From: Fictibacillus halophilus
GTDB taxonomy: Bacteria; Bacillota; Bacilli; Bacillales; Fictibacillaceae
Direction of reading: 5' to 3'
Length of the DNA stretch: 64,000 nucleotides
Assembly: GCF_016401385.1 (NCBI RefSeq)
Contig: NZ_JAEACF010000002.1
Location: 1 to 64,000, forward strand
This document shows positions 59,314 to 64,000 of the stretch, piece after piece. Within the stretch, counting starts at the first letter, position 1. Every line of letters begins with the position of its first letter. The notes beneath the pieces are model-generated. The model was not told where the DNA came from. It was given only the letters and a program-made list of their open reading frames with translations, and made no database searches. Position numbers and translations under genes: made by a program.

Positions 59314-60375
59314 TTATTTACGATGAACGCGTGTGCGGTCACCAGCGATCTTTTTCCATTTTGCTCTTTCTGCATTCGCTAGCTTTTGATCTTCCTTACG
59401 TGCGAAGTAAGCTAATTCACGCTGAAGTTTTACATAACTGTTATAGCGATCTTCCTTTAACTCACCTGTTTCAATCGCTTCCTGCACCTTGCACCCTGGT
59501 TCGTTTTGATGCGTACAATCGCGAAAACGGCATAGTTCCGCATACCCTTCAACATCTTGAAAACTTTGACCTAAGCTGCTGTCGCCTTCCCACAATTGAA
59601 GCTCTCTCATTCCTGGAGTATCGATTAAGATCCCACCACTTTCCAGAACAAGCAGCTCACGATGAGTGGTCGTATGCTTTCCTTTTCCGTCTTCTTCACG
59701 AATAACGTTTGTTTTCAATACCTCTGACCCGAAAAGCTTGTTTGCCAGTGTTGATTTTCCAACACCAGAGGAACCTAATAGAGCAACGGTTTCACCTTCT
59801 GAAATATAGGCAGCTAGATCTTCAAGACCCGAGCCTGTTTCTGCACTAACTGCAAAAGTAGGAACTCCAAACGCGATGGTTTCCACTTCATCTATAAACT
59901 TTTGAACATCGTCACAAAGATCAGCCTTGCTTAAAACAATAACTGGAGTCGCTCCGCTTTCCCAAGCCATTAACAAATAGCGCTCAAGTCTGCGAAGGTT
60001 AAAGTCTTGATTTAGAGCATTGACTAAAAAGACCGTATCTACATTTGTCGCAACAATTTGTTCATCCGTTGTTAAGCCGGCTGCTTTTCGAGAAAACTTA
60101 CTTTTGCGCGGCAGTATTCCGTGGACGTAAGCTTTTCCCTCTTGCGGAATAGCCTGAACAGCGACCCAATCTCCAACTGCTGGGAAATCATGACGTCCTG
60201 TTGCATGAAAGCGAATCTTCCCTGTGATTTCCCCTAATAATTCACCATGCTCCGTCAGAACACTATAGAGTCCCTTATGCTCTACGCTAATTCTTCCTGG
60301 AACAAGATCTTGATTTTCATATGATTTAAACGATTCTTCAAATGTTTGATTCCAACCTAGTGATTTTAAATTCAA
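59314..60375 (-). CDS. rsgA: Ribosome small-subunit GTPase RsgA (long form)
   Basis: A 353-residue circularly permuted GTPase. OB-fold (about 25-95), then G4 LSKAD (148-152), P-loop GSSGVGKST (201-209), G3 DTPG (251-254) and a zinc site C281, C286, H288 and C294. RsgA tests late 30S maturation. At 353 residues it is longer than B. subtilis CpgA (298) and more like the second RsgA found in some Bacillaceae; a cpgA is expected elsewhere. ATG at 60375 follows GGAGGG. Confidence 0.9.
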   Translation of the reverse strand: MNLKSLGWNQTFEESFKSYENQDLVPGRISVEHKGLYSVLTEHGELLGEITGKIRFHATGRHDFPAVGDWVAVQAIPQEGKAYVHGILPRKSKFSRKAAGLTTDEQIVATNVDTVFLVNALNQDFNLRRLERYLLMAWESGATPVIVLSKADLCDDVQKFIDEVETIAFGVPTFAVSAETGSGLEDLAAYISEGETVALLGSSGVGKSTLANKLFGSEVLKTNVIREEDGKGKHTTTHRELLVLESGGILIDTPGMRELQLWEGDSSLGQSFQDVEGYAELCRFRDCTHQNEPGCKVQEAIETGELKEDRYNSYVKLQRELAYFARKEDQKLANAERAKWKKIAGDRTRVHRK

Positions 60376-60448
60376 TGTAATACCCTCCGAATAAATGTTG
60401 TCATTTTATAAAAGTCTTTTTTCCGCAAATGATGTTGCTTCTGAAAGT

Positions 60449-60577
60449 GTTGATTTCCGTTCCAGGTTGCTCGCTTTCCACGGGGCAGGTGGTGAGCCAC
60501 ATTCGAATGTTTCACATTTAAGTGTCTCACCTGCCCGCCTGTCCCGTAGGAGTCTCGCACCTTCCACTCCAATCAAC
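60449..60577 (-). repeat. Dispersed structured repeat, copy H
   Basis: Reverse-orientation copy from GTTGATTTCCGTTCC to CACTCCAATCAAC. Central stem variant as copy B. Confidence 0.9.
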
Positions 60578-60629
60578 TGTCAAAGGTGTCAAGAGTTAAA
60601 AGCAACAACCTTTTAGCGTTTACAAAATA

Positions 60630-60661
60630 GAAAAAGAACCTAAATATACTTAGGTTCTTTA
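60630..60661. terminator. Terminator-like hairpin
   Basis: AAAGAACCTAA / TTAGGTTCTTT with a 9-nt loop, downstream of the small gene at 60772-60849 on the minus strand. Confidence 0.8.
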
Positions 60662-60771
60662 CCGAAAGAAGGGTACACAAATACCCCTCTTCATATAAAA
60701 AACCATGGCACTGTTGTACAGCCCATGGTTACATGACAAATTTAAGCGAAGATATTACATACGCAAATAAA

Positions 60772-60849
60772 CTACTTGCGCTTCTTCATCGTCCCAATAG
60801 GCTGTACATAATTTACACTCTCTGAAGTCAATCCATTAAGTTGTCTCAT
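60772..60849 (-). CDS. Possible small protein gene, perhaps frameshifted
   Basis: ATG at 60849 follows AAGGAGG with 8-nt spacing, a strong site. The direct reading gives 25 residues ending TMKKRK. A -1 shift after codon 6 gives a more protein-like reading, IDFRECKLCTAYWDDEEAQ and then VVYLRM, which ends at 60755 and carries a CxxC. The spacer 60662-60940 holds only this and a CCATGG inverted repeat at about 60703-60728. Confidence 0.4.
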   Translation of the reverse strand: MRQLNGLTSESVNYVQPIGTMKKRK

Positions 60850-60939
60850 GATACATACCTCCTTGGGTTTCATTTAGATTAGTTACTTTACATCTACACT
60901 ATAGCAGTATATGCATAATATGTAAATAGATGCATATTT

Positions 60940-61995
60940 TTATTTTTGAACAGAAGCATTCTGATAACCTTCAATGATCCGTTTGATCATAGGCATATCC
61001 ATGTGAAGGGGTGCTGCTTCTATTTCTTTGAGCATTTGTTGAGTGTTGCTGTCATCGAACGTGATGTTTCTGTTCAAGTAATTTTTATAAACATCAATCA
61101 CGCTGTTGAGAAGCTGTTCTTCTTCATTTAGAGACGGCTCGTAATCATACGGAGCAAGCTTAAACAGTTCAAGTCCAGCTTTTTCCCTCATTACTTGAAA
61201 AACATCTGCACTAAGAGGTGGATTGTTATTTGTAATATGATAGATCTTCGTTTCTCTTCCCTTTTGTAGAACACCAGATAAAACATCTGCTACATAATCA
61301 ACAGGAACAAGATTCTGTGTACTGCCTTCTTCACACAATAAGTGGAATACGCGATCTCCCATTCCTTTTCTCTGGAATCTTCTCTTAAAAACTTCAAGGC
61401 TTCGGAGTAATCCATACAGCGTAAACTTTGAATCTGCTTCCCCTGTTTTAGAGTCGCCAATAATGATTGCCGGTCTTAAAATACTTACGTTAAAACTATC
61501 TGTAAACTCCATACATAAGTGCTCTGCTTTACACTTACTTTCTTCATATGGATTGTTAAAGACATTGTTCACACTGTGTAATTCTTCTTTAGCAAATTCG
61601 CCTTTGCCAAGAGTATAGGCTGTGCTTACATAATAAAAATGCGATACACCCATTTTCTTTGCAGCATGAAGTGCATGTTGTGTACCTGTATAATTTATTT
61701 GAAAAAGTTCGTCTTTAAGGTCCAAGTCAAATTTAACAAGGGCAGCCATGTGATAAAATACATCAATTTTATCTGAAAGCTCTTGCTCCGCTTCCTTCGT
61801 CATTCCTAAGTGAGGAGCGGTAATATCCCCTTGAATAATATGAATAACGCCATTCAAATCAGCTGTCTTGTGAAGAAGCTGTTCCGCTTTTTGTAAGTTT
61901 CGCGCTAACACATAAAGTGTATGACCTTCACGCGCCAAGTTTTGAATTAAGCGACCACCTAGAAAACCAGTTGCTCCGGTTAAAAATATTTTCAT
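60940..61995 (-). CDS. NAD(P)-dependent extended SDR (NAD_binding_4 type)
   Basis: A 351-residue extended SDR: TGATGFLGGRLIQNL Rossmann loop, YHMAALVKFDLDL, Tyr-Lys pair in NPYEESKCKAE and the NLVPVDYVADVL segment. This is the male-sterility/thioester-reductase-like group. ATG at 61995 follows AGGAAGGAAC; the longer reading lacks a site. Substrate unknown. Confidence 0.88.
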   Translation of the reverse strand: MKIFLTGATGFLGGRLIQNLAREGHTLYVLARNLQKAEQLLHKTADLNGVIHIIQGDITAPHLGMTKEAEQELSDKIDVFYHMAALVKFDLDLKDELFQINYTGTQHALHAAKKMGVSHFYYVSTAYTLGKGEFAKEELHSVNNVFNNPYEESKCKAEHLCMEFTDSFNVSILRPAIIIGDSKTGEADSKFTLYGLLRSLEVFKRRFQRKGMGDRVFHLLCEEGSTQNLVPVDYVADVLSGVLQKGRETKIYHITNNNPPLSADVFQVMREKAGLELFKLAPYDYEPSLNEEEQLLNSVIDVYKNYLNRNITFDDSNTQQMLKEIEAAPLHMDMPMIKRIIEGYQNASVQK

Positions 61996-62100
61996 TGAGC
62001 TGTTCCTTCCTATTCCTATATCACCATACTTCTGCTTATATAGTACCACAACATTACTTGTATGTTGCCGGTTTCAATAGCTGTGCTAAATTAAGCCACA

Positions 62101-62134
62101 AAATAAAAAAGCTGCTAAAAAGCAGCCTTATTTT
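62101..62134 (-). terminator. Terminator of the prxU unit
   Basis: AAGGCTGCT / AGCAGCTTTTTT on the minus strand with a short loop; it overlaps the end of the small gene. Confidence 0.85.
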
Positions 62135-62301
62135 TCATCATCAGGTTTCGCAATATTAACAGCAGGCATCTCACTATTCATGTAATCAGTAGGATGGCCA
62201 TCTGTTTGTTCATTCTGGTCATAAAAATAAGCGTTGATCTCTTGTTCTGCGTGAGCAGTCGGATCTTCAATAGGTTGTTGGTTCTTATGTTCCTTGTCCA
62301 C
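62128..62301 (-). CDS. 57-residue hydrophilic protein downstream of the selenoperoxiredoxin
   Basis: GTG start at 62301, 2 nt after the peroxiredoxin stop codon, with AAAGGAG 7 nt upstream inside that gene, so translation is coupled. The product is acidic and polar, with INAYFYDQNEQTDGHPTDY in the middle and no cysteine. I do not recognise it. Confidence 0.65.
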   Translation of the reverse strand: MDKEHKNQQPIEDPTAHAEQEINAYFYDQNEQTDGHPTDYMNSEMPAVNIAKPDDEK

Positions 62302-62303
62302 AG

Positions 62304-62771
62304 TTACTCTCCTTTTCCACATGATTCACAAGCTTTAAATACTTCTTCATACTGAAGCTTTTCATTCGCATCAAACGTATGATTGCTGAATTGGACAATT
62401 CCTTCTTGATCGATAACAAAACAGGATCGAATGGCAGTTCCATCCTTTTCGTTAAGAACACCAAACTTCTGCGTTACTTTTTTATGCCAATCAGCTAGAA
62501 GCGGATATGGCAAAGTTCCTAAAGCAGCTGCAAATACATTGTGTGAGTAAATGTGATCAACACTGATCGCAAGTACTTCTGTATTTGCATCTTCAAAGCG
62601 TTTATAATCCTCTTTCCAAGAGGTTATTTCCTTAATTCAACCAGGTGTAAAATCTAGCGGATAAAAAGCCACAAGGACATTCTTTTTCCCTTTAAAGTCT
62701 GATAGCGAAATATCTTTTTTTAATGTAGACGGTAACGTAAAATCGGGTGCAAAATCACCTTTTTGTAGCAA
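62304..62771 (-). CDS. Peroxiredoxin with in-frame TGA at the peroxidatic position (probable selenoprotein)
   Basis: From the TTG at 62771 (AAGGAGG 8 nt upstream) the frame encodes 155 residues of an AhpC/TSA-type peroxiredoxin, interrupted only by TGA at 62637-62639. The reading is [11 protein letters not shown], then [15 protein letters not shown] as codon 45, then [41 protein letters not shown] and a C-terminal CESCGKGE. In homologues the residue after FTPG is the catalytic Cys (FTPGC; compare C45 of Bcp here). A hairpin follows the TGA as expected of a bacterial SECIS. I read the TGA as selenocysteine; a Cys-to-stop mutation is the alternative. Selenium machinery is not in this window. 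Confidence 0.8.
62604..62639 (-). promoter_or_regulatory. Candidate bacterial SECIS element
   Basis: Minus strand: after TGA (62639-62637) come 9 nt, then AUAA / UUAU (62627-62624 with 62607-62604), a bulged A (62608), then CCUCUU / AAGAGG (62623-62618 with 62614-62609) closing a GGA loop (62617-62615). The loop starts with GG, 19 nt after TGA. The published bacterial SECIS model asks for a small apical loop with a G in its first two positions, 16-37 nt after UGA; all are met. Confidence 0.7.
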
Positions 62772-62870
62772 CTATCCCACCTCCTTGCGTCTTTATGAAT
62801 ATACTTCCCTGAACATATAAAAGAAAACGTTGGAATATATAGTCATTGCATGGTGATGTCTAAAAAAGCT

Positions 62871-62972
62871 GAAGACTTATAAAAACCATTTCAAGACTTA
62901 TAAATTTTTTTGAGGACTTATAAAAATGTTTGAAGACGTATAAATTTTTCCGAAGACTTATAAAAGAAAATT
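62871..62972 (+). repeat. Tandem array 5, 20-21-bp period, five degenerate units
   Basis: GAAGACTTATAAA-type units begin at 62871, 62892, 62912, 62932 and 62952 (GAAGACTTAT, CAAGACTTAT, GAGGACTTAT, GAAGACGTAT, GAAGACTTAT), each followed by A/T-rich variable bases. It lies between the acidic protein gene and the peroxiredoxin promoter. Confidence 0.85.
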
Positions 62973-62976
62973 TCAG

Positions 62977-63016
62977 TACAAAAAAGCCAGGGACCGCGAA
63001 TCCCTGACTTCATTTT
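62977..63016 (-). terminator. Terminator of the acidic repeat protein gene
   Basis: On the minus strand GTCAGGGA / TCCCTGGC with TTTTTT after it. Confidence 0.85.
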
Positions 63017-63018
63017 CA

Positions 63019-64000
63019 CTATTTTGTTTCAGTTTCTACTGTGATTTCAACTGTGTTTTCAGTTTTATCTTCTTGAGTTGCAGGTACTTCAACAACTTTT
63101 GAAGCATCTTCTTCTAAAACATCTTCAACTGCTAAAATTGCCGCGTTGATTGCTGCATGAAGCTTTGCATTTTCAGAAGCGTGCTCAACTGCTAATGAAC
63201 GAATTTTGTTCAAAAGAGCAGAAACTTCTTCTTCAGTCGTAGTTTCTTCAGTTGCCGGAGCTTCTTCTGTCACTTCTTCTTCAGTCGTAGCCTCTTCAGC
63301 TGCCGGAGCTTCTTCTGTCACTTCTTCTTCAGTCGTAGTCTCTTCAGTTGCCGGAGCTTCTTCCGTTACTTCTTCTTCAGTCGTAGTTTCTTCAGTTGCC
63401 GGAGCTTCTTCCGTTACTTCTTCTTCAGTCGTAGTTTCCTCAGTTACTGGTGCTTCTTCAGTTACTTCTACATCAGCATGTACAGCAGCGCTTGGTGCAG
63501 CATGCAATTTCGCATTTTCACTTGAACGCTCAAATGCATTAGAGTTGATTTTATTTTGAAGAGATTTGTTTTCTTGAACTTCTTCTGCGTCTTCAGAATC
63601 TTCTTCGTGAGAATGATCTTCTTCATTCTCAGTATCATCGTCCTCTTTTACTGCATCATCGTCAGCAATAACATCTGTTTTCTCTTCTTCTTTGACTGGG
63701 TTATCTTCATTTTCCTCTTGAACTGCTTCACCTTCAGAATCTTCATCGTCTTCTTTAACTGCGTCTTCATCAGAAACAACGTCAAGATCCTCTTTACGAG
63801 TGGCATCCTCATCTTCAGTCACTGAATCTTCTTTTTTACCTTCTTCAGGATTTGTTGTAACAGGAACTTCAATCTCAATGACTTCCGTTTTTTCTTCCTC
63901 AACAGGAATTACAACTTCTGTAGGTTCTTCAGTAACAGGTTTTGCAACAGGCTCATCCGTTTTAGTCGGAACAGCATGAACCGCTGCATTTGGAGCAGCG
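63019..64000 (-). CDS. Acidic repeat protein, C-terminal part (partial)
   Basis: The frame is open from the right edge to 63019, at least 326 codons, and its start lies outside the window. Very rich in Glu, Asp, Thr and Val. Five copies of a 16-residue unit VTEEAPATEETTTEEE lie at 63226-63465. A second module, NKI-x-S-x-A-x-E-x-(A/S)SENAKLHAA, occurs on both sides of them, and a partial AAPNAAVHA at the edge. No membrane anchor or sorting signal is seen at the C-terminus. I do not recognise the family. Confidence 0.85.
   Translation of the reverse strand, partial: AAPNAAVHAVPTKTDEPVAKPVTEEPTEVVIPVEEEKTEVIEIEVPVTTNPEEGKKEDSVTEDEDATRKEDLDVVSDEDAVKEDDEDSEGEAVQEENEDNPVKEEEKTDVIADDDAVKEDDDTENEEDHSHEEDSEDAEEVQENKSLQNKINSNAFERSSENAKLHAAPSAAVHADVEVTEEAPVTEETTTEEEVTEEAPATEETTTEEEVTEEAPATEETTTEEEVTEEAPAAEEATTEEEVTEEAPATEETTTEEEVSALLNKIRSLAVEHASENAKLHAAINAAILAVEDVLEEDASKVVEVPATQEDKTENTVEITVETETK
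63226..63465 (-). repeat. 48-bp coding tandem repeat, five copies
   Basis: 240 bp coding for five 16-residue VTEEAP(A/V)TEETTTEEE units; copies 2, 3 and 5 give identical protein sequence. Such repeats change copy number easily. Confidence 0.9.

Follow-up and report, generated by a model that had tools for sequence, protein, structure and literature searches.

An in-frame UGA at the peroxidatic position of a Fictibacillus peroxiredoxin gene very probably specifies selenocysteine

The window studied here (the whole stretch of 64,000 nucleotides that was analysed) carries a gene that very probably encodes a selenoprotein, a one-selenol peroxiredoxin that resembles AhpE. Its reading frame is crossed by one UGA at codon 45, and we consider it highly probable that this codon is decoded as selenocysteine (Sec) by means of SelB and a downstream hairpin, giving a functional peroxiredoxin as product. 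This conclusion follows from the Sec machinery encoded in the same genome, the conservation of the TGA codon, the constraint on the RNA stem and the presence of selB in nearly all genomes that carry the gene.

The gene and its reading frame

The features of the gene are as follows.

62304-62771, minus strand: predicted Sec-containing peroxiredoxin gene, with a TTG start (62771-62769), 155 codons and a TAA stop (62306-62304)
62780..62785, minus strand: ribosome binding site AGGAGG, 8 nt 5' of the TTG start; GGAGG is found upstream in the 18 Fictibacillus rows shown
62637..62639, minus strand: UGA, predicted to be read as Sec45 at the peroxidatic position of the motif P-xxx-T-xx-U; column 45 is U or C in 35 of 35 aligned proteins
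62319..62330, minus strand: C-terminal CxxC (Cys148, Cys151), a possible lineage-specific resolving pair

With the TGA entered as C, the Pfam model AhpC-TSA (PF00578) matched residues 5-128 with 125.7 bits (cut-off 26), and this match spans the TGA. The only in-frame TGA (62639-62637) lies directly 3' of FTPG in the stretch FYPLDFTPG. A preliminary description of the window had proposed a 155-codon peroxiredoxin frame with a good ribosome binding site and a lone TGA at the codon of the peroxidatic Cys after FTPG, and the TTG start, the AGGAGG and the AhpC-TSA match across the TGA agree with it, as does the Cys that distant homologues have at this place. The coordinates 62304..62771 that it gave are right, but it left the strand unstated, and the gene is on the minus strand. 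The Bacillaceae host that it had deduced is right in kind, the nearest named relatives of the gene being those of Fictibacillus.

Two observations concern the surroundings. On the plus strand, in the spacer that separates the peroxiredoxin gene from the next one (window 62870-62966), there are five TGAAGACTTATAAA-like units with a spacing of 20-21 bp, and the exact GACTTATAAA occurs four times in this array, compared with 0.25 occurrences expected in the window. Similar arrays exist at about the same place in loci L049-L052 and were not found in L053-L058, L091, L041 and L059; the array may be a repeat element or have a regulatory role. At window positions 63019-63822 (minus strand), immediately upstream of the peroxiredoxin gene, lies an open reading frame for 267 residues, rich in Glu and Thr, with a tandem EEAPATEETTTEEEVT-type repeat.

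Conservation of the TGA codon

Within the genus, the gene was present in 18 of 18 genomes, each time with exactly one TGA and no further stop. At the level of the family, 26 of 34 genomes gave a match (E<=1e-35), all 26 with one TGA, and the distribution followed the genera: two of the four genera had the gene in all genomes (18/18 and 8/8) and the other two in none (0/8). Among the 397 genomes drawn from the order, 49 had matches (E<=1e-30), and exactly one TGA was present in each of the 52 matches obtained.

A scan of named genome contigs yielded 75 loci. When these were combined with the loci found earlier, a set of 101 loci resulted, in which some genomes are counted twice and the codon at the Sec position is TGA in 74 cases, TGC in 21 and TGT in six. 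All 71 Bacillales loci, a set that again includes some genomes twice, carry TGA at exactly this codon, and the remaining three TGA rows come from Chloroflexi (L094), an unclassified bacterium (L098) and Planctomycetota (L099). The 27 loci that code for Cys are distant relatives with identities of 28 to 48%; the alignment with Cys homologues that the preliminary description had called for therefore places Cys at the UGA position in the more distant homologues.

That description had also named other stop codons or frameshifts in close relatives as observations that would speak against a selenoprotein. No second in-frame stop was encountered in the 18 genus, 26 family or 52 order matches; a frameshift does occur in L092 from Neobacillus sp. 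SuZ13, which is not a close relative. In L092, UGA and hairpin are intact and the frame shifts near codon 109, reflecting either a broken copy or an assembly error. This locus was kept in the codon counts over 101 loci, in the set of 87 loci and 75 sequences described below, in the synonymous diversity, in the tallies of Cys, CxxC and Gly and in the scan for SECIS geometry.

To an ordinary gene caller the gene looks broken, and a nonsense mutation or sequencing error that makes it a pseudogene or artefact would be in line with that appearance, with the frameshift in one of 87 related loci (L092) and with genome G029, where the TGA is retained and Sec machinery was not found. Nevertheless, we regard this explanation as exceedingly improbable, given that the same lone TGA recurs throughout the genus genomes and the order matches with no other stop, that 86 of the 87 loci of the window gene's group are open on both sides of the TGA over the usual length and that, away from the hairpin region, synonymous diversity is close to what is expected (0.90).

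The hairpin downstream of the UGA

The predicted RNA structure 3' of the UGA consists of the following elements.

62604..62627, minus strand: SECIS-like hairpin, based on fold prediction and synonymous constraint
62623-62618 with 62614-62609, minus strand: six-pair upper stem CCUCUU/AAGAGG of the hairpin
62617-62615, minus strand: hairpin loop GGA, opening 19 nt after the TGA
62608, minus strand: bulged A of the hairpin, followed by a four-pair lower stem

The loop is as the preliminary description had it, three nucleotides starting with GG and opening 19 nt after the TGA. For the 39 nt after the TGA, the minimum free energy fold (ViennaRNA) had 10 pairs, one bulge and an energy of -7.1 kcal/mol. 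Three of 200 shuffled sequences and 38 of 5000 synonymous recodings folded as well, and 1482 of 20000 recodings kept six pairs at the stem positions. On a single sequence alone the hairpin is thus only modestly unusual, and because these folding statistics are weak, the case for it leans on the comparative test.

For this comparison, the 87 TGA loci of the window gene's group (E<1e-45) were collapsed to 75 distinct sequences. The 15-nt hairpin core, CCUCUUGGAAAGAGG, was identical in 72 of the 75 and still paired in the other three, and it was identical in 71 of 71 Bacillales loci (some genomes being present twice). Over the 75 distinct sequences, synonymous diversity at the stem codons +5, +6, +8 and +9 amounted to 0.084 of the expectation from codon usage, compared with 0.90 outside codons +1 to +13, and no five-codon window clear of the UGA had a lower synonymous diversity than that of the stem codons. 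Codon +5 encodes Thr, Ala or Ser, but in 73 of 75 sequences its last two letters are CC, the other two being the rows with an altered stem. In these two, L136 and L139 of one genus, C15-G27 is replaced by U-A and U18-A24 by C-G, so that the stem is still paired; L132 has a U-G wobble in the stem. As the compensatory changes are confined to one lineage, we counted them as one event. The comparative evidence raises the hairpin far above chance, and the question raised in the preliminary description, whether the hairpin is kept in other homologues with TGA, can be answered with yes, the compensatory changes in one lineage included.

The preliminary description had further suggested folding the region against a bSECIS model. 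In the consensus given in the legend of Figure 2 of PMC13188914, the loop has 3-9 nt, the upper stem 4-16 bp, G stands in the first two loop positions, the distance from the UGA is 16-37 nt and the energy is at most -7.5 kcal/mol. The hairpin of the window agrees with this consensus in its loop (GGA), its stem (6 bp) and its spacing (19 nt), but narrowly misses it in energy, since -7.1 for the 39 nt folded with ViennaRNA is 0.4 above the limit, and the program and the stretch used in PMC13188914 may differ. A similar, loose scan for SECIS geometry was passed by 87 of 87 loci of the window gene's group, by 18 of 22 loci of a second group (described below), by three of three other TGA loci and also by 15 of the 27 Cys loci; such a scan does not discriminate Sec from Cys loci. 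An Rfam search of window positions 60001-64000 returned no SECIS family and two matches far below the gathering score.

Sec machinery and its co-occurrence with the gene

The source genome, of Fictibacillus (3.92 Mb, 9 contigs, 99.99% complete), was searched for selA, selB, selC (tRNA-Sec) and selD, as the preliminary description had advised, and all four were found. The tRNA-Sec model gave 58 bits (cut-off 47), with ordinary tRNAs also matching below the cut-off, and ARAGORN reported a tRNA-SeC with the anticodon tca. Scores of 540 bits for selA, 367.9 bits for selB (a SelB of 633 residues) and 404 bits for selD were obtained, and the machinery genes are grouped on contig C1 at about 1.209 to 1.218 Mb. 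The proposal that this strain makes a selenoprotein is therefore supported by the Sec machinery, the conserved TGA and the kept hairpin, from which the insertion of Sec itself would follow.

Among the genes of this cluster, selD has a single in-frame TGA of its own (L022:12858-12860, minus strand) followed by a hairpin, and SelD of this genome is probably a selenoprotein as well. Between selB and selD (L022:8378-11809) there are genes for a GT4 glycosyltransferase and an ABC transporter of the PhnD/PhnE/PhnC type. Its binding protein scored 187 bits with the putative selenate-binding model TIGR04553, below the cut-off of 250, and the transporter is a candidate for a selenium uptake system. In PMC5322559, YedE and others are named as selenium candidates, and PhnD, phosphonate and ABC transporter do not occur as terms.

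Across the order, selB was over the cut-off in 179 of 397 genomes. Of the 49 genomes carrying the TGA gene 47 had selB, compared with 132 of the 348 that lack it (Fisher p 6e-16, uncorrected for relatedness); for the 47, a match at E<=1e-99 was taken as presence, at least 42 of them being over the cut-off and the other five judged from the E-value. One of the two exceptions, G230, is an assembly of 480 contigs; among the 3 of 12 selB candidates that were scored none was strong, but its tRNA-Sec was over the cut-off. In the other, G029, a genome of the family, the TGA gene and its hairpin are intact (locus L047). Scoring there covered 3 of 3 candidates for selA, 3 of 6 for selB and 150 of 378 for tRNA-Sec, and it gave no match for selA, a best E of only 2.8e-55 for selB, which is not a strong match, and nothing above the cut-off for tRNA-Sec; this reflects either a recent loss of the Sec machinery or an assembly gap. 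Conversely, selA was present in seven of the eight family genomes lacking the TGA gene, so that the Sec pathway does not depend on the peroxiredoxin gene. Formate dehydrogenase was looked for as another Sec client in the source genome, and none of the four matches (two over the cut-off) had an in-frame stop.

Database versions of the protein and other readings of the UGA

No model of NCBIfam passed its cut-off with the window protein (13 families listed). Among 120 listed of 313 database proteins, at least 24 metagenome proteins (P0003-P0026) have Trp at the Sec position, and at least 13 proteins start right after the UGA (P0002, P0030-P0032, P0043 and others). Judging from the proteins, the Trp versions probably stem from gene calling with a code in which UGA means Trp. 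Passages of PMC13188914 and PMC1088965 warn in general terms of the misannotation of selenoprotein genes, and both the 3' fragments and the Trp versions fit that warning.

Taken at face value, the Trp versions would point to Trp or Cys being inserted at the UGA, through a changed code or through near-cognate read-through. We consider such a reading very improbable: the genome has a complete Sec pathway, a conserved hairpin is unneeded for read-through to Trp, and nine other peroxiredoxin-like matches in the source genome, like the four to formate dehydrogenase, are free of in-frame stops, so that UGA does not seem to be in general use as a sense codon there. The conserved lone TGA, the open frames and the Sec pathway led us to reject a pseudogene, a sequencing error and a changed genetic code.

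The database fragments that begin right after the UGA could in turn suggest a selenium-dependent switch, the normal product being a truncated peptide of 44 residues or a C-terminal fragment started internally. However, such fragments are devoid of the catalytic residue and of the N-terminal strands, no AGGAGG-like site is found just before that point in the window, and the whole frame is conserved, all of which makes a switch most unlikely. A full-length peroxiredoxin with Sec45 is the reading that we pursue below.

Active site, cysteines and predicted fold

A distant Arg belongs to the peroxiredoxin active-site signature, and it was found as Arg115 in 35 of 35 rows of our alignment A1, in which position 42 is Thr or Ser. 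The window protein has this Arg in addition to the full peroxiredoxin motif PxxxTxxC/U (PMC13188914), formed by Pro38, Thr42 and Sec45. In 37 of the 75 distinct proteins (FYGMDFTPGU or FYGMNFTPGU), Gly stands in place of the motif Pro, and it is somewhat doubtful whether ordinary peroxidase chemistry applies to those homologues. No Cys is encoded in the 44 codons before Sec at any of the 87 loci, and 41 of the 75 distinct proteins, the frameshifted L092 among them, have none after Sec either. The window protein has three cysteines after Sec (Cys117, Cys148 and Cys151), and the C-terminal CxxC is shared by 18 of the 75 distinct homologues, in A1 by the Fictibacillus rows.

An AlphaFold model based on alignment A1 (35 rows) had a mean pLDDT of 95.8 and placed Sec45 (modelled with Cys) within the first turn of the helix formed by residues 43-54. 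In a Foldseek search all 50 matches listed were of the peroxiredoxin type, going by their titles. The best symmetric TM-score among these 50 was that of AhpE (1xxu; 0.90/0.91, 36% identity), and by E-value the first of the matches listed was 6j13, a redox protein of Chlamydomonas. In sequence comparison, too, the 2-Cys peroxiredoxins 6j13 and 5zte rank above AhpE. Since 2-Cys peroxiredoxins come ahead of AhpE by E-value, the resemblance to AhpE is one of fold size and indicates no clear descent.

Sec might also be inserted into a protein that is not chiefly a peroxidase, for instance a redox sensor based on a selenol or a reductase that acts on selenium or sulfur compounds, as the many homologues with no resolving Cys after Sec (41/75) or with Gly for the motif Pro (37/75) could indicate. 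Against this stand the score of the AhpC-TSA domain (125.7 bits), the retention of Thr42 and Arg115 in the window protein, with Arg115 in every aligned row, and the close fold match to a one-Cys peroxiredoxin, so that we judge a function of this kind to be rather unlikely. One-Cys peroxiredoxins that use outside reductants are known.

For the peroxidase that we favour, we infer Sec insertion, activity, substrate and reductant along the following lines. When the ribosome arrives at the UGA of codon 45, SelB with Sec-tRNA would bind the hairpin, with its GGA loop 19 nt downstream, and Sec would be inserted in place of termination. In the product, which would take the peroxiredoxin fold, Sec45 would lie where the second helix begins, accompanied in the motif by Thr42 and Arg115, and the selenolate of Sec45 would attack H2O2 or an organic hydroperoxide to give a selenenic acid. 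Because many homologues have no later Cys, their selenenic acid would need an outside thiol for its reduction, perhaps that of bacillithiol or of a thioredoxin-like protein. The resolving role may fall to the C-terminal CxxC in Fictibacillus.

Related groups and evolutionary history

A second group of Bacillales Sec peroxiredoxins (L140-L161, 22 loci) has the motif WTPVU and one TGA at the same codon. Its members share 41 to 51% identity with the window protein and differ from it in the sequence after the UGA. Among the 20 genomes searched, three (G061, G155 and G162) carry the first group as well, and two copies of the second group are present in G155 and G230.

In a tree of 49 chosen rows, rooted by midpoint only, the two Sec groups formed separate, well-supported clades (98/98, and 97/92), and the second joined the Cys proteins P0042 and L095. 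Six changes of the Sec label are required on this tree, and well-supported branches force four of them. P0027, a metagenome protein with Cys, is nested in the first Sec clade beside L135 (100/92) and likely represents a change from Sec to Cys.

At four further loci, L112, L120, L122 and L123 (from Latescibacterota, Zixiibacteriota and Tissierellales), distant peroxiredoxin- or thioredoxin-like proteins have an in-frame TGA three codons before the aligned Cys; these are probable UxxC selenoproteins.

Discussion

For many spore-forming bacilli, these results correct how an antioxidant gene is annotated; databases contain its product as fragments devoid of the active site or with Trp in its place. 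They also offer culturable bacteria for the study of Sec peroxidases, along with comparisons that nature provides: a nested Cys homologue, a hairpin rebuilt by paired changes, relatives with Gly for Pro and a genome that keeps the gene and in which no machinery was found.

A wider interpretation is offered only tentatively. Possibly, the gene represents a widespread Bacillales clade in which a selenol is the sole catalytic chalcogen, with no backup Cys, with the motif Pro lost in about half of the members and with replacement by Cys rare (one form, P0027). In Fictibacillus, the peroxiredoxin might be one of few clients that sustain the Sec machinery, because the formate dehydrogenase matches are free of an in-frame UGA.

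The hosts of the window gene's group are Bacillaceae and relatives, which we take not to be strict anaerobes. A partial literature search brought up no printed name for the clade of the window gene and no literature on selenoproteins of Fictibacillus or Neobacillus. Passages of PMC1794560 mention three selenoprotein families in Bacillales, which they leave unnamed, and passages of PMC5029168 count 91 Sec peroxiredoxins in 78 organisms; the window gene is not named in those passages of either paper.

As a kind of enzyme the Sec peroxiredoxin is already known, and what is new is this clade member with its unusual features. Sec peroxiredoxins (PF00578/COG1225, motif TxxU) are an established family, listed in PMC13188914 and PMC9312934, for which PrxU of Eubacterium acidaminophilum is cited as the founding case. 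With this family the window protein has in common the peroxiredoxin domain and Sec in PxxxTxxU. It differs in that Cys is missing after Sec in 41 of the 75 relatives in its group, and Gly replaces Pro in 37 of the 75. The preliminary description had brought up PrxU; in the sense of the PrxU equivalog NF040737 of NCBIfam, the window protein is not PrxU, scoring 84 bits with a cut-off of 270. Thiol peroxidase Prx-SUH (NF045827) is likewise a selenoprotein family with a peroxiredoxin-type domain, listed in a table of PMC13188914, and is set apart by its motif CxxU and by the 44.8 bits that the window protein reaches (cut-off 298). Mycobacterial AhpE (1xxu, 4x0x), a one-Cys peroxiredoxin, is alike in size, at about 153 residues, and in fold, and has Cys where the window protein has, very probably, Sec.
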